Assembly (NCBI GenBank): GCA_003175985.1
Contig: PSRJ01000205.1
Location: forward strand, 1-46,973
Source: Terriglobia bacterium
GTDB lineage: Bacteria > Acidobacteriota > Terriglobia > Bryobacterales > Bryobacteraceae
Length of the DNA stretch: 46,973 nucleotides
Direction of reading: 5' to 3'
This document shows positions 1,821 through 13,297 of the stretch, one piece after another. Within the stretch, counting starts at the first letter, position 1; each line of letters starts with the position of its first letter. The notes under the pieces are model-generated. The model was not told the origin of the DNA. It saw only the letters and a list, made by a program, of their open reading frames with translations, and did not search any database. Made by a program: the position numbers and the translations under genes.

Positions 1821-3176
1821 CTAAGCCTCATTGTATACGCCTTGCTGGCAGCGAGTCTCCGTCGTCAGACTCAGCAGCAAAACCGTGACGAGCGACCAGC
1901 CTATGCTCAACAAAAACCCTGTTTCGAACGCGTCCAACCCGTAAACCCGCAGACCGTTCAGCATTTGTCCCGACCATTTCTGATCGAGTATCCAACCAAT
2001 GCCCGGCTGCAGCAGCATGGGCCCGATCATGTTGCCGGAATTGATTAACCCCGTGATGGCGCCCGAAAATTTCACCGGTACGGATTCTTTACCCAAAGCG
2101 AACCCGATGATCACGGCGCCCGTAGCCAGGCTCGTCAGCGCTGCGATCGCTATAAAGGCCGGCAAACCCAGGCCACCGGCATAGAACATGGCCAACCAAC
2201 CGGCCGCGGCGGTCACTGCGCCGCCGACATAGATAGGCTTCCGCCTGCCGATCCGGTCCGAGAGATGTCCGCAAATGGGGCTTGCCACCGCCCAGCAGAT
2301 GATCATCACCGAACACACCGCCGCCGCCGTCGTCGCCGGCAGGCCGAAGCGCGCGCGCAGAAACGGCGCGCCCCAGAGTCCCGTGAAAGTCATGATGGGG
2401 CCGACCAGCCCGCCCTGCGCGAAGAAGATCAGCCATGTGTTGCGGTAGCCGAAAATCCGTTTGAAGCCTTTCAGAAGGGTGAGAAACTGTTCGTGCTTTT
2501 GCGCCTGCAATTCGGCCGGAGCGTAGCTCCGAAAACCGCGCTCGGCCGGGTCGTTCCGCACCAGCAGCCACGCGAGCAGAGCCACGGCAAGAATCACGCC
2601 CGCTGAAGCCATCATCACCGTGCGCCAGCCGAAGTTTTCGATCAGCAGCCGCAGCGGCACCTGCGCCACCAGCGCGCCCAGGTTCCCAAAGCAGAGCCCC
2701 AGCCCGGTGAGCATCGCGAACCGCTCCGGCCGGAACCATTGGGTGGCCAGCCGCAGCACCACCAGCCAGGCCACGGCCGTCGAAATGCCAATAACCGCTC
2801 TCCCCGTACACGCCAGCGCAAAGCTGGTCGTCGCGCCGACCAGGAAAGTGCCTGCCGCGGCCGCGAACGACCCCGTTACCAGCAGTTTTCGCGCGCCCCA
2901 GGAATCGATCAAAACCCCTACCGGGATCTGCATCACCACGTAGAAATAGAAATAGAATCCCGAGAGATTGCCCAGCTCTTTCGCGCCGATGTGGAAGTCC
3001 CGCATCAGCTCGGTGGTCATTACTGCCGGCGAAACGCGCTGGTAAAACCCGGTGAGATAGAACAGCGCGGCGATGCCCCAGATGGACCACGACAGCCACG
3101 CCGGCGCGGTTGGCAGACGTCCTTCGGCCGGAACTGCGGCCGGCTTCACAGGGGCGGCACTCACACGATTCGCCAA
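1821..3176 (-). CDS. MFS transporter (sugar-phosphate/organic-anion permease type)
   Basis: The 451-aa polytopic inner-membrane protein has about 12 hydrophobic segments. The MFS loop 2-3 signature is visible as GVLIDSWGARK near residue 85, and a second copy in the C-terminal half reads GHLSDRIGRRK. These are the classic G-x(3)-D-x-x-G-R-[RK]-like motifs of the two six-helix halves. The N-terminal pattern (GFYQRVSPAVMTTELMRDFHI) resembles the sugar-phosphate/glucarate permease branch, but the substrate cannot be read from sequence. The start is TTG at 3176, with a GAGGGAG ribosome site four to five bases upstream; a GTG at 3164 is the alternative. Only 9 bp separate it from the ThuA-like gene upstream, which indicates an operon. 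Confidence 0.88.
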   Translation of the reverse strand: MANRVSAAPVKPAAVPAEGRLPTAPAWLSWSIWGIAALFYLTGFYQRVSPAVMTTELMRDFHIGAKELGNLSGFYFYFYVVMQIPVGVLIDSWGARKLLVTGSFAAAAGTFLVGATTSFALACTGRAVIGISTAVAWLVVLRLATQWFRPERFAMLTGLGLCFGNLGALVAQVPLRLLIENFGWRTVMMASAGVILAVALLAWLLVRNDPAERGFRSYAPAELQAQKHEQFLTLLKGFKRIFGYRNTWLIFFAQGGLVGPIMTFTGLWGAPFLRARFGLPATTAAAVCSVMIICWAVASPICGHLSDRIGRRKPIYVGGAVTAAAGWLAMFYAGGLGLPAFIAIAALTSLATGAVIIGFALGKESVPVKFSGAITGLINSGNMIGPMLLQPGIGWILDQKWSGQMLNGLRVYGLDAFETGFLLSIGWSLVTVLLLSLTTETRCQQGVYNEA

Positions 3177-3185
3177 TCGGCTCCC

Positions 3186-4052
3186 TCAATCCTTCGGCAA
3201 CGGCCGGGGCGTCACATCCGCATCCGTCAGGCCCAGGGACCACTTAATCGCCTCCAGCCACATCGTCTGCAGCATCGGATTGTCCCATGCCGCGACTTCA
3301 TGTCCGAAAGACGCGAAGAACACGCGTCCCTTGCCGTACTTCTTCACCCACGCCTGAGGAAAATCGCTGTCGGTCCGATGCACCCCCTCGTGTTTCATAT
3401 CCACCTTACTGGTATCGAGCCGAAGCAGCACGCGGATATCTTCGCGGGAAAAATCTTTGGCCTGGTACATCTCGTCGCGAAGCGTGAACACCGGCGGAAA
3501 CTGTTTTGTCGCCGGGAATGCGGGGTCTTCCACAATCACCGGCGCTTCGATGAGATTCCAGGGATGCCCGTCGTAGCGCGCTCCCAGCATCTCGCCGAAC
3601 TCCGGCCAGGAGAGGAACGCCGTATCGGCCGTGTGCGCGGCCACGAACCCTTTGCCATCGTCCTTCACGAACGAAAGCAGATCTGCTTTCTGTTGCGCGG
3701 ATAGCTCAATTTCCCGCATGCCGAAAAAGAAAATGCCATCGAAATAGTTGAGGGTTTTGTTCACCGGCCAGTCGCGGCCGTCGGCGAAAACACTCAGCGG
3801 CTGCTTGGTAATGAGCTGCGAATCGGTACGCAGGTAGGCATCGAAGAGTCCGGTATCCCGGCCCATTTTCTCAACCACAGCCATAGCGTGCGAAACCGAA
3901 TCGTGATAGGCGCCGCCAAAGCGCGTGTCGCACCAGACGAGAAGCTGTTTTCGGGAAGGCCGCTGGCTGCCGCGGCCCGCGGGCCGGTTCTGGGCCACCG
4001 CCGCGCCGCAAACGATCACCAGACATGCCGCCAGGAACCGGGATGAAATCAT
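3186..4052 (-). CDS. ThuA-like (trehalose-utilisation-type) exported protein
   Basis: The product is about 288 aa, starting at ATG 4052, with a Sec signal (MISSRFLAACLVIVCGAAVAQ). The mature part matches the ThuA class of the glutamine-amidotransferase-like fold: LLVWCDTRFGGAYHDSVSHAMAV opens the domain, followed by YFDGIFFFGMREIELSAQQKADLLSFV and GKGFVAAHTADTAF (the usual G-G-G-x-x-H-x-A-x-D region). The C-terminus carries WVKKYGKGRVFFASFGHEVAAWDNP. ThuA proteins are associated with sugar metabolism, but the catalytic role is unresolved. An in-frame GTG at 4073 with AGGGG ten bases upstream is an alternative start. A possible -10 box (TAGAAT, 4082-4077) would place transcription initiation inside that extension, which favours 4052. 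It is the first gene of the minus-strand operon and diverges from the aldehyde dehydrogenase. Confidence 0.8.
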   Translation of the reverse strand: MISSRFLAACLVIVCGAAVAQNRPAGRGSQRPSRKQLLVWCDTRFGGAYHDSVSHAMAVVEKMGRDTGLFDAYLRTDSQLITKQPLSVFADGRDWPVNKTLNYFDGIFFFGMREIELSAQQKADLLSFVKDDGKGFVAAHTADTAFLSWPEFGEMLGARYDGHPWNLIEAPVIVEDPAFPATKQFPPVFTLRDEMYQAKDFSREDIRVLLRLDTSKVDMKHEGVHRTDSDFPQAWVKKYGKGRVFFASFGHEVAAWDNPMLQTMWLEAIKWSLGLTDADVTPRPLPKD

Positions 4053-4099
4053 TTCGAATGAGACCTTTCCCACCCGATTCTATCCCCTGGCGGCCGGTC

Positions 4100-4155
4100 C
4101 CGGAACAAGAGAAAACGGCGGTAACGGTAGTGATACGGTAACTCCATTGTTCCGG
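4100..4155. repeat. 9 bp inverted repeat flanking the operator-like element
   Basis: CCGGAACAA at 4100-4108 and its exact reverse complement TTGTTCCGG at 4147-4155 flank the 22 bp element at 4121-4142 in the divergent region between the ThuA-like and aldehyde dehydrogenase genes. The right arm contains the proposed -35 of the plus-strand gene. The left arm would be at a comparable place for the minus-strand operon. This is direct sequence observation; the role is inferred. Confidence 0.5.
4121..4142. promoter_or_regulatory. Operator-like 22 bp element, copy 1
   Basis: This is an imperfect palindrome built from two GTWACSGT half-sites. The left arm is GTAACGGTAG, the right arm is ATACGGTAAC, and TG lies between them. 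Read on the opposite strand it matches copy 2 (6608-6629) at 19 of 22 positions. It ends four bases before a TTG that could be the -35 of the aldehyde dehydrogenase gene (TTGTTC 4147-4152, 17 bp spacer, TAGGTT 4170-4175). The same four-base distance is kept at copy 2. It is probably a transcription-factor site; the factor is unknown. Confidence 0.5.
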
Positions 4156-4182
4156 ACGAAGCCGGATGTTAGGTTGGGATCG

Positions 4183-5589
4183 ATGGCCAGGTCGATCACA
4201 CCGGAAGAGCAGCGGTATGCTCAGGAATTGCTGGCGCGGGCCCGGCACGCGATGTGCCTGATCGAGGGATACGATCAGGCTCGCATCGATCGTCTCTGCC
4301 AGGCCGTAGGCTGGGCCACCGCCAACGAGAAGACCTTCACCCGTCTGTCGCACATGAGCGTGGATGAAAGCGATCTCGGCGATCGCGAGGGCCGGCCCAA
4401 CAAACGCTTCAAAATCATGGGCATCTTGCGCGACGCGCTTCGTCAGAAAAGCATGGGGATTATCGAAGAGATCCCTGAAAAGGGAATCGTGAAGTACGCG
4501 AAGCCGGTGGGCGTGATCGCCTCGCTCGTTCCCGTCACCAATGCCTCTCTTACCGAATCGGGGAACGGCATCTATTCGCTCAAATGCAAGAACGCCATCA
4601 TATTTTCCCCGCATCCGGCGAGCAAGAAGACCACGTTTGAAACGGTCCGTATCATGCGGGAGGCTTTGAAGCGGCAGGGCGCGCCCGAAGACCTGTTCCA
4701 ATGCATCGAAAAACCCAGCATCCCGCTGGCGCAGGAGTTGATGGCTATCTGCGACCTGACCATCGCCACCGGCGGCTCGGCCATGGTCAAAGCCGCCTAC
4801 AGTTCCGGCAAGCCGGCGTATGGCGTGGGCGCGGGCAATGCCACCATGGTCATCGACGAGACCGCGAATATTGCGGAAGCCGCCCGGAATACCCGCATCA
4901 GCAAGATCTCGGATTTCGGCAGCGGCTGTTCCGCCGATGGCAACCTCCTTGTAGAAGAGTCGATCTACGACCGGTTTCTCGAGCAACTGCAGAGAGAGGG
5001 CGGCTATCTGGTTACGGAGGGGGAGAAAGAACTCCTGCAGGCCGTCCTATGGGATTCCGAAGGCCATCGCACTCCGCCTACCGTGGCCCGCTCGGCGGCG
5101 CGGATCGCGGAGATCGCGGGCTTTCGTATTCCTTCGGGCAAGACCTTTCTCATCGTCGAGGAAAGCCAGATCGGCAAGGAGTATCTCTTCTCGAGCGAAA
5201 AGTTGTGCCCCGTGCTGGCGATTTTCCGCTACAGCGGTTTTTCCTGTGCTCTGGAAATGGTTCGGCAGATCTACGAGGTCGGTGGAAAGGGCCACTCCTG
5301 CGGCATCTATTCTTTCGATGAAGAACATATCCATCAGCTCGCGCTGGTGGCGCCGGTGAGCCGCATGATGGTCCGGCAGCCGCAATCGAAAGCCAATGCC
5401 GGCGCGTTCAACAATGGCATGCCGATGACCTCGAGCATGGGTTGCGGGATCTGGGGTGGCAACGTCACGAATGAAAACATCGCGCTCAAGCACTACATGC
5501 AGGTGACCTGGGTGAGCCGGCCCATTCCCGAGGATCGACCTTCGGAGGCGGAGCTGTTCGGAGAGTTCTACAACACGGAAACCTTCTGA
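4183..5589 (+). CDS. Acylating (CoA-dependent) aldehyde dehydrogenase, SauS/EutE-like
   Basis: The 468-aa cytosolic enzyme of the aldehyde dehydrogenase superfamily belongs to the acylating branch, which oxidises an aldehyde to an acyl-CoA with NAD(P)+. Visible blocks are KYAKPVGVIASLVPVTNA (nucleotide-binding entry), LKCKNAIIFSPHPASKK, ATGGSAMVKAAYSSGKPAYGVGAGNATMVID, and the catalytic cysteine region DFGSGCSADGN with Cys249. The C-terminus has SMGCGIWGGNVTNENIALKHYM and ELFGEFY, which resemble sulfoacetaldehyde dehydrogenase (SauS) more than EutE. The true substrate is unknown, and no other sulfonate genes are nearby. Length fits the family. The ATG at 4183 was chosen because homology begins there; the frame is open further upstream but reads through the promoter region. 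The ribosome site is weak (AGG at 4171), and the proposed -10 is only eight bases before the ATG, so the mRNA may be nearly leaderless. The TGA overlaps a possible CTG start of the next gene. Confidence 0.85.
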   Translation: MARSITPEEQRYAQELLARARHAMCLIEGYDQARIDRLCQAVGWATANEKTFTRLSHMSVDESDLGDREGRPNKRFKIMGILRDALRQKSMGIIEEIPEKGIVKYAKPVGVIASLVPVTNASLTESGNGIYSLKCKNAIIFSPHPASKKTTFETVRIMREALKRQGAPEDLFQCIEKPSIPLAQELMAICDLTIATGGSAMVKAAYSSGKPAYGVGAGNATMVIDETANIAEAARNTRISKISDFGSGCSADGNLLVEESIYDRFLEQLQREGGYLVTEGEKELLQAVLWDSEGHRTPPTVARSAARIAEIAGFRIPSGKTFLIVEESQIGKEYLFSSEKLCPVLAIFRYSGFSCALEMVRQIYEVGGKGHSCGIYSFDEEHIHQLALVAPVSRMMVRQPQSKANAGAFNNGMPMTSSMGCGIWGGNVTNENIALKHYMQVTWVSRPIPEDRPSEAELFGEFYNTETF

Positions 5590-5669
5590 CGGTCCTCCTC
5601 GCCGCACAGGCGATTGGCAGCGCGAGCTTCGCCGGGGAGAATGTCCCGCATCGCGGGTCCCGGCGGATC

Positions 5670-6593
5670 ATGGGGACCTTTTGCGAAATCCAGGGCTACG
5701 ATTCCGATGCGGCGCGAGCCGGCCAGGCCATAGAAGCGGCGCTCGATGAAATGAGCCGCATCGATCGTCTGCTGAGCAACTACGACCCCGCAAGCGAACT
5801 GAGCGCGATGAACCGGTCTGCGGCCAGCGCGCCATTCCGGGCTTCGGCCGAGCTGTTCGGGTTCGTAGCCGCCTGCCGCCGGTTTTATGACGAGAGCGCC
5901 GGAACCTTTGATCCCACGGTCGGCGCGCTGGTCCGCGCCTGGGGGTTCTTTGCCCGCCGTCCGGAGCTGCCTTCCGCCGCCGCAGTCGCCGCGGCAAAGG
6001 CGGCATCAGGTTTCGACAACGTTCGGCTGATCCCCGGCGATCACAGCATCTCGTACCTCGCCTCCGGGTTGGAGTTTGACCCCGGCGGCATCGGCAAGGG
6101 GTATGCCGTGGACCGGGCGGTTGCGGTTCTCAGGCGCCTCGGCATCCGGTCCGCCCTGGTCAGCGCGGGCGGCAGTACAATCTACGGCTTGGGCCATCCG
6201 CCGGGGCGCGACGGCTGGAAAGTGGCCGTTGCCAATCCCGCGGATGCAAACCGTCCGGTGGCCTTCATTCAGCTCCGCGATAACGCGCTCTCGACTTCGG
6301 GTGTATCGGAGCAGTCGCTCAAGGCGGGAGAGCGTCGCTACAGCCATATCTTCGATCCGCGGTCCGGCGCTCCGGTGGAGGGGATGTGCCAGGCAACCGT
6401 GATCGCACGCAGCGCCGCGGAGTCGGACGCTTTGACCAAGCCGGCGTACATACTCCCGCGCGAGGAAGTGACACGGGTGATGAAGCGCTATCGAGGGGCG
6501 CACGCCCTGCGGATGGAGGGCGCCTGCCAGGGGCCGCCCGCGGTCTGGATGACCCCGTGGTCCCGGCCCTTCTTCATTGGAAACACCGAGTAA
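5670..6593 (+). CDS. apbE: FAD:protein FMN transferase (ApbE family)
   Basis: ApbE enzymes attach FMN covalently to a threonine of flavoproteins in the periplasm, using FAD and Mg2+. Here MGTFCEIQ opens the fold (the usual MGT start of the mature domain). It is followed by FDPTVGALVRAWGF, EFDPGGIGKGYAVDRAVAVLRRLG (GGIGKGYA, the FAD-binding block, from about residue 137), SAGGSTIYGLG and YSHIFDPRSGAPV. The length of 307 aa is slightly short because the ATG at 5670 lies at the start of the catalytic fold and leaves no export signal. The frame stays open upstream and, from a CTG at 5586 that overlaps the TGA of the preceding gene, reads LTVLLAAQAIGSASFAGE, which looks like a signal peptide. I therefore think the real start is probably this CTG, coupled to the dehydrogenase; no in-frame ATG, GTG or TTG exists between. 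The flavoprotein target is not in the window. Confidence 0.87.
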   Translation: MGTFCEIQGYDSDAARAGQAIEAALDEMSRIDRLLSNYDPASELSAMNRSAASAPFRASAELFGFVAACRRFYDESAGTFDPTVGALVRAWGFFARRPELPSAAAVAAAKAASGFDNVRLIPGDHSISYLASGLEFDPGGIGKGYAVDRAVAVLRRLGIRSALVSAGGSTIYGLGHPPGRDGWKVAVANPADANRPVAFIQLRDNALSTSGVSEQSLKAGERRYSHIFDPRSGAPVEGMCQATVIARSAAESDALTKPAYILPREEVTRVMKRYRGAHALRMEGACQGPPAVWMTPWSRPFFIGNTE

Positions 6594-6607
6594 CGGGAGC
6601 CCGGTTC

Positions 6608-6629
6608 GTTACCGTGCCGCTACCGTTAC
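6608..6629. promoter_or_regulatory. Operator-like 22 bp element, copy 2
   Basis: Here the two half-sites are GTTACCGT (6608-6615) and CTACCGTTAC (6620-6629). It matches the reverse complement of copy 1 (4121-4142) at 19 of 22 positions. Four bases later come TTGGCC (6634-6639), a 17 bp spacer and TAGCAT (6657-6662), the same geometry as at copy 1. The promoter segments also share ATTG and GATGYTAG at identical spacing. It stands upstream of the receptor gene starting at 6679. Confidence 0.5.
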
Positions 6630-6633
6630 TCTA

Positions 6634-6662
6634 TTGGCCCTACGGGAACCCGATGCTAGCAT
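6634..6662 (+). promoter_or_regulatory. Possible promoter of the first receptor gene
   Basis: TTGGCC, a 17 bp spacer and TAGCAT form a weak sigma70-like promoter (four of six matches in each box). What lends it weight is its alignment with the region 4147-4175 ahead of the aldehyde dehydrogenase gene: both have ATTG at the -35 and GATGYTAG around the -10, at identical distance from the shared 22 bp element. The predicted start of transcription would be very close to the ribosome site of the GTG at 6679. Confidence 0.35.
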
Positions 6663-6678: not shown

Positions 6679-9600
6679 GTGAAACATATGAGTTTCCGAT
6701 TGTTGGCAGGCCTGCTGGCTTGCGCCGCCGTCTGGGGGCAGGCCGTTTCCACGTCGCAGATTTCGGGTACGGTCGAAGATGCGACCGGCGCCGCCGTCGA
6801 AGCGGCCGAGGTGAAAGTAACGCAGACCGACACCGGACTGGTGCGGTCGGTTTCCACCGGAGTGGATGGCTCTTACATTCTGCCCAACCTTCCTGTTGGC
6901 CCATATCACCTGCAAGTCACCAAAGCCGGCTTCAACGCCTACGTGCAGACTGGAATCGTGCTTCAGGTGAACACCAATCCCGTGATCAACGCCACCCTCA
7001 AGGTTGGGTCTGTTACCGAACAGGTGGTCGTGGATGCCAGCGTGGCCATGGTGGAAACCCATAGCAACGGCGTAGGCCAGGTAATCGATCAGCAGCGGGT
7101 GGTCGATTTGCCCCTCAACGGACGCCAGGCTACCGAGCTGATTTTCCTCTCCGGCGCCGCCACCACGGCTCCCGCAGGCGACCTCAACACCAATAAGAAC
7201 TACCCGACCGTCACGATCTCGGTTGCCGGGGGTCTTCCCAACGGAATGACCTACGTAATGGATGGCGGCACGCATAACGACCCCTTCAATAACCTGAACC
7301 TGCCGATCCCATTCCCCGATGCTTTGCAGGAATTCAAAGTAGAGACCAGCGCCGTTCCGGCGCGCTACGGGCAGCATGCCTCGGCCGCGGTCAACGCCGT
7401 TACCAAGAGCGGCAGCAACCAGTTTCACGGCAGCGTCTTCGAGTTCGTCCGCAACTACCAGTTCAACGCGCGAAACTTCTTCGCCCCCGCGCGCGACTCT
7501 CTCAAGCGCAACCAGTTCGGCGGCGTGGCCGGCGGCCGCATCATTCCCAACAAGCTGTTCTTCTTCGCCGGCTACCAGGGGACCATCGTCCGCTCGAACC
7601 CCCCGACCACCATCACCTTCGTCCCCAACCAGGCGATGCGCAGCGGCGATTTCACCACCTTCACTTCCGCCGCCTGCCAGGGCCGCCAGGTGAATCTCAG
7701 CGCGCCGTTTGTGAACAACCAGGTTTCGCCCGCGCTGTTCAACCAGCAGGCGCTCAATTTCTTGAAGTATGTGCCGACCACTTCCGATCCCTGCGGCCGG
7801 GCGCAGTACGGAATCCTGAATAACAATCGCGAGCACCAGATCATCGGTAAAATCGACTACCAGTTCGCGCAGAATCATACCTTCTATGGCAGGTACTTCA
7901 TCGGGAACTACAAGAACCCGGTCGAATGGGACGGCCAGAACGTTCTGCTTGCGAATAAGACCGGCGTCGCCAACCAGGCGCAATCCGTGGTCCTGGGCGA
8001 CAATTATGTCTTTAGTCCCAACACGATCAGCGCGCTCCATGTAACCGTGAATCGCACGCGCAACAACCGCGTGCTGGTTCCTTATTTTTCTCCCACTGAC
8101 CTGGGCGTGCAGGTCTTCAGCCTCGCGCCGAAATTCATGGGCATCAGTGTGACCGGCGGCCTCACGCTCGGCGCCGGCGGCACCAACCCCGGGTATTTCA
8201 ATTCCCTCTCTTACCAGGTTGCTTACGATATGGACCTGATCCGCGGAGCCCACCAGATCTCTTTCGGCGTGAACTGGATTTACTCCATCATGAACACGCT
8301 GAACAACCGCCCCACCAATGGCCAATTCACTTTTAACGGCCAGACCTATGGATTGGGCTACGCCGACTTCATGCTGGGCGCCCTGGATTCCTTTGTCCAG
8401 GGGAATCCCGTTTACGATAACGACAAGTCGAATTACATCGGCTTGTATGTGCAGGACTCCTGGAAACTCAGCCGCAAGCTCAGCTTCAATTACGGCGTGC
8501 GCTGGGAACCTTTTCTTCCCGAGCACAACAGCAACGGCTTCGTAGAGAACTTCGATGTGGGACGTTTCCTGGCGGGACAGCGGAGCGGCGTATATAAAAA
8601 CGCTCCGGCGGGGTTGATCTTTCCGGGCGATCCCGGGTATCCCGGCCAGTCGAACGTTTTCGGCCGAACGGCGCAATTCGCCCCGCGGGTCGGTTTGGTT
8701 TGGGATCCCAACGGCGATGGACGCATGACGATTCGCGCTTCGTACGGCGTGTTCTTTGACACGCCGCAACTGTTCTTCTTCACGCGCGTGGCCAACAATC
8801 CGCCGTGGGGCGCGCAGATCAGCCTTACCAGTCCCAAGGGCGGCCTCACCAATCCCTACGCGGACTATCCGGGCGGCAATCCGTTCCCGGCCCTCAACGC
8901 GGTCTCGAAGGATATGGCGTTTCCGGCGGCCGGCGTTTACGTGAATGCTCCGGTCCACATGCACCCTGGCAACCTGCAGCAGTGGAACCTGAGTATCCAG
9001 CGCCAGGTGGGAGAATGGCTGCTTTCGGGAAGCTATTTGGGTAACAAGACGACGCACCTGTGGACCTCCGCCGAGCTGGATCCGGCTGTCTACGGGCCGG
9101 GCGCCACCACCGGTAATACCAATCAGCGGCGCGTTCTCTACCGCTTGAATCCGGCGCAGGGGCAATTCTATTCGACGATCGGGCAACTGGACGATGGAGG
9201 CAATGGCGGCTATGAAGGGCTGTTGCTTTCCGCGCAGCGGCGCTTGAGCCGCAATTTCTCCGTGCTCTCGAATTGGACCTGGTCGCACTGCATTAGCGAC
9301 GCCGAGACCACCGAACTAACGGGGCCCAGCTATGTCGATCCGGCCAATCGAGCGCTCGATCGTTCGAACTGCTCCTCAGACCGGCGGCACATCGTCAACT
9401 TCTCGGTCGTAGCAAGAACTCCCCGGTTTTCGAATCACGCGGCGCAACTTCTCGCCGGAGGCTGGCAGCTCTCGAACATCCTGCGCTGGCAGACCGGCAA
9501 TTTTGCCACGGTCACCACGGGCGTGGACAACGCGTTGACGGGGATCGGCAATCAGCGGCCGCTCCAGGTGCTCCCCGACGTGCTCTGGCCGAATGCTACA

Positions 9601-9894
9601 GTAGACCATTACTTGAACCGGAATGCTTTTGCTTCGCCCTCGACCGGCACGCTCAGCACAATGGCGCCTCTGCTGATCCCGAATCCCGGCACGCTGCAAA
9701 TCGACATGAGCCTGCAGCGGGTCTTTCGCATTCGCGAGGGCCAGACGCTGCAGTTCCGTGGCGAGGTCTTCAATTTGCCGAACCATCTCAATCCCAACGC
9801 CCCTACGCTCGGTTTGAACAGCACTACCTTCGGCACGATCACCACGGCGGGCGATCCGCGTATCATGCAATTCGCGTTGAAATACCTGTTCTGA
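6679..9894 (+). CDS. TonB-dependent receptor with N-terminal carboxypeptidase-regulatory-like domain (receptor 1)
   Basis: The product is about 1071 aa. A Sec signal (to about residue 20) is followed by a carboxypeptidase-regulatory-like beta-sandwich (SGTVEDATGAAVEAAEVKV... to about residue 110), a plug region with LPLNGR at 144-149, and a long barrel rich in aromatic/Asn strands. It ends FALKYLF, the C-terminal phenylalanine expected for BAM-assembled outer-membrane barrels. This architecture is that of the Oar-like receptors expanded in Acidobacteriota; the ligand is unknown. The GTG at 6679 has AGGGG six bases upstream; an ATG at 6688 (VKH|MSFRL) is the alternative. The PQQ dehydrogenase gene starts one base after its stop, so the two are surely co-transcribed, and the receptor may import or anchor the substrate of that enzyme (inference). 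Confidence 0.88.
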   Translation: MKHMSFRLLAGLLACAAVWGQAVSTSQISGTVEDATGAAVEAAEVKVTQTDTGLVRSVSTGVDGSYILPNLPVGPYHLQVTKAGFNAYVQTGIVLQVNTNPVINATLKVGSVTEQVVVDASVAMVETHSNGVGQVIDQQRVVDLPLNGRQATELIFLSGAATTAPAGDLNTNKNYPTVTISVAGGLPNGMTYVMDGGTHNDPFNNLNLPIPFPDALQEFKVETSAVPARYGQHASAAVNAVTKSGSNQFHGSVFEFVRNYQFNARNFFAPARDSLKRNQFGGVAGGRIIPNKLFFFAGYQGTIVRSNPPTTITFVPNQAMRSGDFTTFTSAACQGRQVNLSAPFVNNQVSPALFNQQALNFLKYVPTTSDPCGRAQYGILNNNREHQIIGKIDYQFAQNHTFYGRYFIGNYKNPVEWDGQNVLLANKTGVANQAQSVVLGDNYVFSPNTISALHVTVNRTRNNRVLVPYFSPTDLGVQVFSLAPKFMGISVTGGLTLGAGGTNPGYFNSLSYQVAYDMDLIRGAHQISFGVNWIYSIMNTLNNRPTNGQFTFNGQTYGLGYADFMLGALDSFVQGNPVYDNDKSNYIGLYVQDSWKLSRKLSFNYGVRWEPFLPEHNSNGFVENFDVGRFLAGQRSGVYKNAPAGLIFPGDPGYPGQSNVFGRTAQFAPRVGLVWDPNGDGRMTIRASYGVFFDTPQLFFFTRVANNPPWGAQISLTSPKGGLTNPYADYPGGNPFPALNAVSKDMAFPAAGVYVNAPVHMHPGNLQQWNLSIQRQVGEWLLSGSYLGNKTTHLWTSAELDPAVYGPGATTGNTNQRRVLYRLNPAQGQFYSTIGQLDDGGNGGYEGLLLSAQRRLSRNFSVLSNWTWSHCISDAETTELTGPSYVDPANRALDRSNCSSDRRHIVNFSVVARTPRFSNHAAQLLAGGWQLSNILRWQTGNFATVTTGVDNALTGIGNQRPLQVLPDVLWPNATVDHYLNRNAFASPSTGTLSTMAPLLIPNPGTLQIDMSLQRVFRIREGQTLQFRGEVFNLPNHLNPNAPTLGLNSTTFGTITTAGDPRIMQFALKYLF

Positions 9895-9895
9895 T

Positions 9896-11746
9896 ATGCG
9901 CTTTTCTGTTTTGTTATGCGGAGCCGCCATTTCGATGGCGGCTTTCGCGCAGACCGACTGGCCTACCTATGGGCGGGACTTGGCCGGCACGCGCTATTCT
10001 CCGTTGAAGCAGATCAACACGCGTAATGTAACCAGGCTCGCGAAGGCCTGGACCTATCACATGAGCGGCATCGGCGGAGCACCGCCAGCCGCGCGGGTCT
10101 GGGAAGCTTCCCCGCTCGTGGTCGGGGGCGTCATGTACCTCACCGCCGCCAACGGCCGCGTCGTGGCGCTGGAACCCGAAACCGGCAAGGAGTTGTGGGT
10201 CTACCAGGTGAGTGATGGACTGCCGGCCGAGCGCGGCCTGGAATATTGGCCCGGCGACGCTCAATCTTCGGCGCAGCTCTTCTTCGGCACTTCGACCGGA
10301 AAACTGATCGCTCTCAATGCCAAGACCGGCAGACTGGCGCCGGGTTTCGGCAACGAAGGCATCGTCGATATGAAGCCCGGAGCACTGAATGGCCTTACGA
10401 ACTCCATGTTCGGACTTTCCTCCCCTCCGGTTGTTTACAAGAATCTGGTGATCACGGGGGCGCATGTGCAGGAGTCGCCGAGCATCGGGTCGGCCGGCGA
10501 CACGCGCGCCTGGGATGTACACACCGGCAAACTGGTCTGGACCTTTCATTCCGTCCCGCGGCCGGGCGAGGCTGGCAGCGAGACCTGGGAAGGCGATAGC
10601 TGGAAGAACCGTTCGGGCACCAATGTGTGGGGCTTCTTCACCCTAGACGCCGAGCGCGGCATCCTTTATATGCCGTTCGGCGAGCCCACAACGGATTATT
10701 GGGGCGGCGACCGTAAAGGCGCCAATCTCTATGGCACTTCTCTGGTAGCGGTGGACGCACTGACCGGCAGTCTCAAGTGGTATTTTCAAGCCGTCCACCA
10801 CGACACGTGGGATTATGACTTGGCCGCGCCGCCGGTTCTTCTTGAGATCACTCGGAACGGCAGGAAGATACCGGCCGTGGCCCAGCTCACCAAGATGGGC
10901 CTGCTGTTCTTTTTCAATCGGGTGACGGGCGAACCGATCTATGGAATCGAAGAAAGGCCCGTCCCCGTTTCCGATGCGCTTGCCGGCGACACACCGTGGC
11001 CGACACAGCCCTTTCCGCTGAAACCGCCGCCGCTGGCGCGCAACAGTTTTCAGCGGAGCGAACTTGCCACTGTGACACCCGAGCTGGAAGAATTTTGCCG
11101 CGAGCTGTTCGATAGCGTTCCGGGCGGATTGCATAGCGGCGGCCCGTATACGCACTATTCCACGGAGCCGAGTGTCATCTTCCCGAGTTCGATCGGCGGC
11201 GGCAATTGGAACCCTCCTTCCTACGATCCCGCGCTCGGCTACCTGTTTGTGAACACGATGGATTTCGGCAGTCTGAACACGATGGCGAAAAGCAGCGACG
11301 GCACACGGTATAACCGGCTCGGTTATCGTGGCATCAACCGGTTCTGGGAGCCATCGAACAACCTCCCATGCAACCAGCCGCCCTGGGGGCGCTTGTTCGC
11401 CATCAATGTGAACACCGGAGACATTGCCTGGCAAGTGCCGCTCGGGATTACCGAGAGCTTCCCGGAAGGAAAGCAGAGAACGGGCCGGCCCAACATGGGC
11501 GGCTCGCTGGCTACAGCCGGCGGTCTTGTATTCATCGGCGCCACCGACGACAGCCGCTTCCGCGCGTTCGAATCGAAAACCGGCAAAGAGCTTTGGGTGA
11601 CCAGGATCGACGCCGGCGCGCACTCGGCCCCGATCACCTACCAAAGCAAAGACGGCAAGCAGTACGTGCTGGTCACCGCCACCGGCGGCGGATTTCTCGG
11701 GGACAAGAGCAATGCCGATTCGGTGATCGCTTTCGCGCTGCAGTAA
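9896..11746 (+). CDS. PQQ-dependent dehydrogenase (glucose/quinate-type quinoprotein), periplasmic
   Basis: The 616-aa protein has a Sec signal (MRFSVLLCGAAISMAAFAQ) and an eight-bladed quinoprotein propeller. It starts with DWPTYGRDLAGTRYSPLKQI and repeats GRVVALEPETGKELWVYQ, GKLIALNAKTGRLAPGF, TGKLVWTF, ALTGSLKWYFQ and TGKELWVTRI, the W-motifs of PQQ propellers. HHDTWDYD at 301-308 corresponds to the HHDLWD-like active-site block of membrane glucose dehydrogenase, whose Asp is catalytic; the C-terminal MGGSLATAGGLVFIGATDD also fits. The five-helix membrane anchor of Gcd is absent, so the enzyme should be soluble and need a cytochrome or quinone acceptor. The next gene encodes an exported c-type haem protein. 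The substrate (sugar or alcohol) is unknown. The ATG follows the receptor's TGA after a single base. Confidence 0.9.
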   Translation: MRFSVLLCGAAISMAAFAQTDWPTYGRDLAGTRYSPLKQINTRNVTRLAKAWTYHMSGIGGAPPAARVWEASPLVVGGVMYLTAANGRVVALEPETGKELWVYQVSDGLPAERGLEYWPGDAQSSAQLFFGTSTGKLIALNAKTGRLAPGFGNEGIVDMKPGALNGLTNSMFGLSSPPVVYKNLVITGAHVQESPSIGSAGDTRAWDVHTGKLVWTFHSVPRPGEAGSETWEGDSWKNRSGTNVWGFFTLDAERGILYMPFGEPTTDYWGGDRKGANLYGTSLVAVDALTGSLKWYFQAVHHDTWDYDLAAPPVLLEITRNGRKIPAVAQLTKMGLLFFFNRVTGEPIYGIEERPVPVSDALAGDTPWPTQPFPLKPPPLARNSFQRSELATVTPELEEFCRELFDSVPGGLHSGGPYTHYSTEPSVIFPSSIGGGNWNPPSYDPALGYLFVNTMDFGSLNTMAKSSDGTRYNRLGYRGINRFWEPSNNLPCNQPPWGRLFAINVNTGDIAWQVPLGITESFPEGKQRTGRPNMGGSLATAGGLVFIGATDDSRFRAFESKTGKELWVTRIDAGAHSAPITYQSKDGKQYVLVTATGGGFLGDKSNADSVIAFALQ

Positions 11747-11899
11747 CGCGCCATTGCGCGGAGGCCGTTCCTTCGTGCAACTCTGCCTCGGCGGCGAAAC
11801 TTTTCGGAAACGCCGGTGTCTAAGTCCCACGTGCTCGAGGTTCGCGACGGCGCCAACCGCCTCAGTTTTCGGGTACACTGCGGTAACAGGAGGGGGACC

Positions 11900-13297
11900 A
11901 TGCGCTTCCAACTCGCGGTGGCAGCACTGCTGGCGGGCGGCCTGCTGCAGGCGGCCGACGTAGCGGCCTCAAGCCAAACTACCTTCAGCAGAGACGTCCT
12001 TCCGGTGTTACAGAAGAACTGCCAGGGCTGTCACCGGCCGGGCCAGATCGCTCCAATGTCGTTCCTGTCTTACAAAGACGCGCGCCCGTGGGCCAAGGCG
12101 ATGAAGACGGCGGTGTTGAGCCGGAAGATGCCGCCGTGGTCCGCTGACTCGCGTTACGGTCCGTATCTGAACGACCGCTCGCTGAAGCAGCCGGAAATCG
12201 ACGCCATCGTGCGTTGGGCCGACGGCGGAGCGCCGGAGGGCGATCTGAAGGACGCGCCGCCCGCGGTCTCCTTCCCGGAGGGCTGGCTGATCCAGCCAGA
12301 CGTGATCGTTGAAGGACCCGTGACCGATGTTCCGGCGAGCCCGAAAAACAACGTCCTGGAATGGATTACCGTGATCATGCCCACAGGGTTCACCAAGGAC
12401 ACCTGGGTGACCTCCGTGCAGATCAAGCCGGAGCACGCGGCCATTGCCCATCACATCTGTATCGGTTACGTGCCGCATCAGCCGAACGTCAAATACGGGC
12501 TCGGCGTTTGGGCCGATCTGCCGCGCGACGCGGAAGGAGCGGCCATGCCGGAAAAGGGTCCGACGTTCGTCGGCCGGGGGCAGGGGCGGGCTGCGGAGAA
12601 TCCGGACGCAGCGGCGATTTTCGCCGAGAGCGGTATCTCCGGCGGGAGCGCGCAGGATTGCTACCTGCCCGGCAATGTCGCTGCCGATTACCGGCCCCTC
12701 AACGCAGCCAAGCTCATTCCCGCCGGGTACGACATCGTTTTCAATGTCCACTACACGCCGAACGGCACGGCTGCTACCGACCACGTGAAGGTCGGGTTTA
12801 CGGTGGCCAAAGAGCCGCCGCGCCGCCGGTACGTTTCGCTGCTGATTTCGGCACCCACGGATTCCAAAACGTTTGCCATTCCGCCGAACGATCCGAACTG
12901 GCAGAGCCCCCACGCCGAGGCGACTTTCCGCGAGGATGTCGAGCTCGTTTACATGATGCCCCATATGCACGTTCGCGGGAAGGATACGACCTGGACCCTG
13001 GAGTATCCCGACGGGCGAAAGCAGGTGGTGCTCGACGTGCCCCATTACGACTTCAACTGGCAAATGGGTTATGACACGTCGATTCGGGTGCCGAAGGGGA
13101 CTCGCCTGCGCGTCGACGCGCACTACGACAATTCGCTGAACAACAAGTTCAATCCCAACCCGAGCCGAACTGTGTACTATGGCCAAATGACATGGGAGGA
13201 GATGATGTCCCCGTTTTTCGGGGTTGTGGTGGACCCTGGAGCGGACGTTCACAAGCTGATCGATTCCCCGGTGGCCTTCGTCTCCGGCGGCGCATAA
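11900..13297 (+). CDS. Exported c-type cytochrome fused to a PHM/DBM-like type II copper monooxygenase domain
   Basis: The 465-aa product has a Sec signal (MRFQLAVAALLAGGLLQAA) and then a c-type haem site, CQGCH at 41-45, inside FSRDVLPVLQKNCQGCHRPG. From about residue 150 the protein resembles the ascorbate-dependent copper monooxygenases (PHM/DBM). It has His184-His185 in AIAHHICIGY, His284 in FNVHYTPNG, the His-x-His pair 355/357 in MMPHMHVRGKD, and Met435 in MTWEEMM. Together these are the pattern of the CuH (three His) and CuM (two His, one Met) sites. The reaction is unknown; a hydroxylase fed by its own haem is an inference. The ATG at 11900 has a strong AGGAGGGGG ribosome site. It follows the PQQ dehydrogenase after 153 bp on the same strand. 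Its last 49 bp overlap the end of the convergent membrane-protein gene. Confidence 0.8.
   Translation: MRFQLAVAALLAGGLLQAADVAASSQTTFSRDVLPVLQKNCQGCHRPGQIAPMSFLSYKDARPWAKAMKTAVLSRKMPPWSADSRYGPYLNDRSLKQPEIDAIVRWADGGAPEGDLKDAPPAVSFPEGWLIQPDVIVEGPVTDVPASPKNNVLEWITVIMPTGFTKDTWVTSVQIKPEHAAIAHHICIGYVPHQPNVKYGLGVWADLPRDAEGAAMPEKGPTFVGRGQGRAAENPDAAAIFAESGISGGSAQDCYLPGNVAADYRPLNAAKLIPAGYDIVFNVHYTPNGTAATDHVKVGFTVAKEPPRRRYVSLLISAPTDSKTFAIPPNDPNWQSPHAEATFREDVELVYMMPHMHVRGKDTTWTLEYPDGRKQVVLDVPHYDFNWQMGYDTSIRVPKGTRLRVDAHYDNSLNNKFNPNPSRTVYYGQMTWEEMMSPFFGVVVDPGADVHKLIDSPVAFVSGGA

Follow-up and report, generated by a model that had tools for sequence, protein, structure and literature searches.

By working principle, the nearest described system is AfsR of Streptomyces and the SARP group, in which an OmpR-type winged helix is joined to a TPR-bearing sensor part, and which acts through a 22-bp box of two 11-bp units in fixed phase to a promoter with a poor -35 (PMC10936776). 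The afs box consists of direct repeats that overlap the -35, with the centre at -29.5, and a winged-helix dimer binds to it (PMC10936776). A 22-bp dyad upstream of the promoter is also characteristic of CRP, for which class I and class II sites are positioned at -61.5 and -41.5, respectively (PMC10936776). Other points of comparison are PhoB and further OmpR/PhoB response regulators, the best structural neighbours of the predicted DNA-binding domain considered here. HilA and EilA are regulators that combine a winged helix with TPRs.

Acidobacteriota are widespread in soil. In the window (the whole stretch of DNA that was analysed, 46,973 nucleotides from a Terriglobia bacterium of this phylum) two copies of a 22-bp element precede catabolic genes. 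Compared with the afs box, this element is a dyad, is centred near -50 and ends about 4 bp before the -35; its logo is that of a dyad and not of two 11-bp direct repeats overlapping the -35, as in SARP sites (comparison with PMC10936776). In relation to CRP, the main site is centred near -50.5 and not at -41.5, a second group of sites, with the -10 at +38, comes near the class I position of -61.5, the half-site is ACSGTWAC and not TGTGA, and the candidate regulator is no CRP-fold protein. Whereas AfsR carries a NOD ATPase, the candidate, whose winged helix is predicted, has a predicted TolB-like domain; unlike OmpR/PhoB response regulators, it has neither a receiver domain nor a sequence match to Trans_reg_C. 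Its helical/TPR region matches the HilA/EilA model (NCBIfam PRK12370, E 4e-15), a match that lies outside the DNA-binding domain and reaches 55 bits against a curated cut-off of 589. No sequence homology of the candidate's DNA-binding domain to known families was detected, and a literature search on the motif, the regulator family and the pathway found no operator of this kind described.

Based on the evidence presented below, we consider it likely, by a fair margin of belief, that the element serves as operator for a small catabolic regulon of Acidobacteriota, specific to one pathway and controlled by a dimeric activator, likely the one-component regulator encoded on contig C314 of the same genome. 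The features of the window are as follows.

1821-3176, minus strand: MFS transporter downstream of ThuA; orthologues lie within the cluster in relatives
3186-4052, minus strand: ThuA family protein, divergent regulon member, ATG at 4052
4077-4082, minus strand: TAGAAT, the -10 of the promoter that leads left into ThuA, at a distance of 38 bp from operator 1
4121-4142, no strand assigned: operator 1, 22-bp dyad GTAACGGTAGTGATACGGTAAC, exact consensus match
4147-4152, plus strand: -35 TTGTTC of the aldehyde dehydrogenase promoter, 4 bp past operator 1; the TTG at +4 is recurrent
4167-4175, plus strand: extended -10 TGT-TAGGTT of the aldehyde dehydrogenase promoter, 17 bp past the -35
4183-5589, plus strand: acylating aldehyde dehydrogenase (AldDH; SauS/AdhE-N-like)
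5670-6593, plus strand: flavin transferase of the ApbE family, probably belonging to the AldDH operon
6608-6629, no strand assigned: operator 2, 22-bp dyad GTTACCGTGCCGCTACCGTTAC, exact consensus match
6634-6639, plus strand: -35 TTGGCC of the receptor promoter
6654-6662, plus strand: extended -10 TGC-TAGCAT of the receptor promoter
6688-9894, plus strand: Oar-type TonB-dependent receptor (receptor 1)
9896-11746, plus strand: PQQ-dependent dehydrogenase, nearest to the glucose/quinate/shikimate family
11816-13297, plus strand: protein with a CxxCH haem motif (CQGCH), read earlier as the haem-copper member

Operator 1 and the reverse complement of operator 2 (GTAACGGTAGCGGCACGGTAAC) are identical at 19 of 22 positions, the two sites being oppositely oriented, while the best 22-bp match in 1000 shuffles of one promoter region did not exceed 17/22. 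Operator 1 is followed by TCCA-TTGTTC-17 bp-TAGGTT and operator 2 by TCTA-TTGGCC-17 bp-TAGCAT, and ATTG and GATGYTAG occur at equal offsets in both promoters. A sequence-only reading of this DNA had reported the two coordinates, the opposite-orientation match, the 4-bp gap to the TTG, the 17-bp spacer, the TAG-type -10 and the common ATTG and GATGYTAG, and on recomputation all of them proved correct. The ATG of AldDH lies about 7 bp past the -10 hexamer (window 4170-4183), so its mRNA is probably leaderless. Operator 1 also faces left, toward the divergent ThuA-MFS operon, and the offset of 38 found on this side (27 + 11, one helical turn) is also present at other sites in the six genomes that carry the AldDH.

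The rarity of the element was assessed by pattern searches of the 7.44-Mb home genome. GTWACSGTN6ACSGTWAC has three exact matches and its reversed-pattern control none; the third match (C314:22866) is located on another contig, upstream of a carboxylesterase and a second receptor, with an identical promoter layout (CGCC-TTGTTT-17 bp-TAATAT). A search for a relaxed element with a -10 placed 26-28 bp away returned four sites, which account for five promoter-positioned matches (control, 0), the fourth site lying between the candidate regulator gene and a TPP enzyme gene on C314 and facing the latter. The promoter-proximal half-site together with the TTG and the -10 yielded, in the whole genome, the three exact sites only. 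With two mismatches allowed there were 18 matches vs 37 in the control, that is, at or below control, and therefore in a single genome meaning is limited to near-exact sites; none of the two-mismatch matches elsewhere in the home genome (L004-L015) has a promoter in place. Stray matches across the genome, which the earlier reading had regarded as damaging to its proposal, were thus not encountered, and this favours the regulon. Single exact matches in the genomes G013 and G061 fit chance, as the reversed pattern gives 3 hits in 101 genomes; the one in G061 (L028:1865) overlaps the start of an antitoxin-like gene and is probably fortuitous.

Orthologues of AldDH with 72-84% identity were detected in 5 of 100 relatives (6/101 with the home genome), the next matches falling to 37%, and elements are located near the cluster in all five relatives as well as in the home genome, including a conserved operator upstream of the AldDH orthologue of G053. 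Taken together, the loci of these six genomes and those of G013 and G061 contain 10/8/5 element hits at 0/1/2 mismatches (a count in which one site was entered twice owing to the overlap of two loci), compared to 0.005/0.02/0.54 for permuted half-site palindromes. Among 38 oriented sites from six genomes, TANNNT occurs at +27 (9), +28 (8) and +38 (4) against a mean of 0.53 per offset, and TTG at +4 in 10 sites against a mean of 0.76 per offset. Acidobacteriota-wide, 45 distinct sites were found, and in 34 of these TANNNT follows 27/28 bp downstream. The element has the traits of an activator-type promoter site, at fixed offsets of 27, 28 or 38 directly upstream of a core promoter with a weak -35 and a TTG at +4, and it is kept ahead of the same genes at equal promoter distance, the conservation upstream of orthologues that the earlier reading had proposed to look for. 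The logo derived from 39 oriented sites is a dyad with the consensus KTWACSGTRNCGNYACSGTWAM, followed by GGTGNTAGNAT. Each 11-bp half is nearly palindromic around ACSGT, so that direct and inverted readings of the core are inseparable; the dyad is favoured by the outer bases and by positions 9 and 14. A perfect element at L024:7023, overlapping a ThuA gene at its 3' end, lies some 870 bp away from the start of AldDH, and no promoter is recognisable to either side of it.

The candidate is a one-component regulator of 587 residues (L016:4500-6263) encoded on C314, the contig that also carries sites 3 and 4, and comprises a predicted winged helix, a middle domain that may be TolB-like, judging from the alpha/beta arrangement seen in the model of an orthologue, and TPRs. 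Its family is large, with 16 matches in the home genome, members in 70/101 genomes and a DNA-binding domain that is not represented in Pfam. Close orthologues (60-67% identity) are restricted to 5/101 genomes (home counted), all within the six AldDH genomes; outside the home genome they occur only in G053, G054, G057 and G081, in three of the four on the AldDH contig. The co-occurrence of regulator and AldDH has a hypergeometric p of 8e-8, phylogeny being ignored. A scan of public genomes with the regulator protein, a test independent of the definition of the element, retrieved 24 loci, 21 of them new. The new loci contain 3/15/7 elements at 0/1/2 mismatches vs 0/0.05/0.83 for permuted patterns (18 elements with at most one mismatch vs 0.05 expected), counts that are partly non-independent, some loci coming from related or identical bins. 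Distant paralogous-regulator loci and distant AldDH loci contained 0/0/1 elements each. A PWM trained partly on the loci it scanned gave 50 promoter-positioned or strong hits in the regulator loci and 0 in reversed sequence. This evidence suggests that the TPR regulator is the probable cognate factor of the element.

The full element is absent from 7 of 23 regulator loci (L098, L099, L100, L102, L106, L109 and L117); L102 comprises only 4 kb, and L103 carries a degenerate element only. L098-L100 appear to form a subclade of paralogues, and a dyad search of the intergenic DNA of L098 and L099 gave no full element. In L099, at 20747 (+) and 20568 (-), the promoter-proximal half-site ACCGTTAC is found alone with exact spacing to the TTG and -10, and since it is retained alone, rightly spaced and on both sides, the proximal half is suggested to be essential in this subclade. 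Two MAG contigs, L109 (titled Cyanobacteria) and L116 (titled Rhodanobacteraceae), bear the cluster with the regulator, which may reflect misbinning or horizontal transfer.

It is conceivable, though unlikely, that the regulon is real but depends on some other protein, with the TPR regulator controlling something else in the cluster. Several regulator loci lack elements, as described above; G034 has an AldDH orthologue and elements but no regulator closer than 36% over its full length (a bin with 10% contamination that may be incomplete), and a Trans_reg_C protein is encoded near the C314 cluster. Against this, the TPR regulator co-occurs with AldDH and the elements, loci picked by this regulator alone are rich in elements, and the Trans_reg_C gene has no counterpart in the clusters of the relatives.

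With respect to the DNA-binding part of the candidate, its N-terminus had no Pfam match; membership in Trans_reg_C by sequence was considered and not found (no match of the Pfam family to the candidate; hhalign 7%). Foldseek with the N-terminal model gave no significant hit, and the N-terminal profile retrieved nothing of use from the PDB sequences. The model (pLDDT 86.7) has the layout of a winged helix, with four helices, the fourth of them long, and a beta hairpin. The nine structural neighbours that rank highest are all OmpR/PhoB-type DNA-binding domains, among them SaeR (Z 7.1) and PhoB-DNA (1gxp, Z 6.8), with Z of 5.9-7.1, although values below 8 can reflect a common arrangement; they are supportive rather than conclusive. 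In the long, predicted recognition helix (DPIVRVQARRLR) a Gln is nearly invariant in the regulator clade, while 15 of 16 paralogues have Glu at this position. L106 encodes the sole clade member with Glu, and its 13 kb are devoid of the element.

The proposed operator of the C314 regulator is made up of two 11-bp units that abut each other and together form a dyad. It spans about -61 to -40, just upstream of the weak -35 and a good extended -10, and we infer that a regulator dimer would bind there and most likely activate transcription by recruiting RNA polymerase. In some promoters the dimer would be placed upstream by one more helical turn, and certain sites would drive genes on both flanks; the regulator may sense the pathway substrate or status. 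An activator that contacts RNA polymerase is suggested by the constant phase, by the alternative position one turn away at 38 and by the use of sites in both directions. Repressors often act at dyad operators close to promoters, and a divergent operator can shut two promoters; the same placement of the present element could accordingly be read as that of a repressor operator relieved by the pathway substrate, a possibility we rate slightly lower still than that of another factor. The site lies upstream of the -35, so that the -35 and -10 are left free, and both the constant spacing, of 27/28 or, with one more turn, 38, and the weak -35 are traits of activator promoters. Finally, chance resemblance or a dispersed repeat, imaginable when only two sites were in view, is ruled out for practical purposes by the rarity of the element (three genome matches vs 0 in the control), its exact promoter phasing and its conservation across many genomes.

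The earlier proposal that the AldDH-ApbE operon and the receptor-PQQ-haem/copper cassette form one regulon is supported by the rarity and conservation of the element and appears well founded on sequence grounds. The regulon is larger than first described, as it also includes ThuA-MFS, the TPP enzyme, the second receptor and the esterase, and all four home-genome sites serve one catabolic gene set. AldDH is best matched by the SauS model (NCBIfam NF047625), at 460 bits and thus below the curated cut-off of 600. The protein at 11816-13297 had no match in a Pfam search, and its real start is probably inside the ORF. The C314 genes encode a TPP enzyme of the acetolactate synthase group, an HMG-CoA-lyase-like protein, ThuA, the esterase and the second receptor; in relatives the cluster further includes a citrate-synthase-C-like protein, a zinc alcohol dehydrogenase, a CoA-transferase III and a small cytochrome/HHH protein.

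The analysis thereby provides a defined operator whose promoter rules are exact, together with a compact set of genes and one specific candidate for the regulator, a member of a large unstudied family. The chances are about even that these represent the first operator and regulon for a large uncharacterised one-component family, in which each paralogue may have its own receptor-plus-catabolic cluster and a 22-bp site at about -50. The regulon links genes of an undescribed pathway (receptor, PQQ dehydrogenase, TPP enzyme, acylating AldDH and lyases), and the identity of the inducer could point to a plant-derived substrate. On plasmid pAZKH of Azoarcus sp. KH32C (L150), a TPP enzyme 60% identical to that of C314 has as neighbours a CoA transferase, a citryl-CoA lyase, a shikimate dehydrogenase and a dehydroquinate dehydratase, a combination that hints at quinate/shikimate-like chemistry for the pathway.
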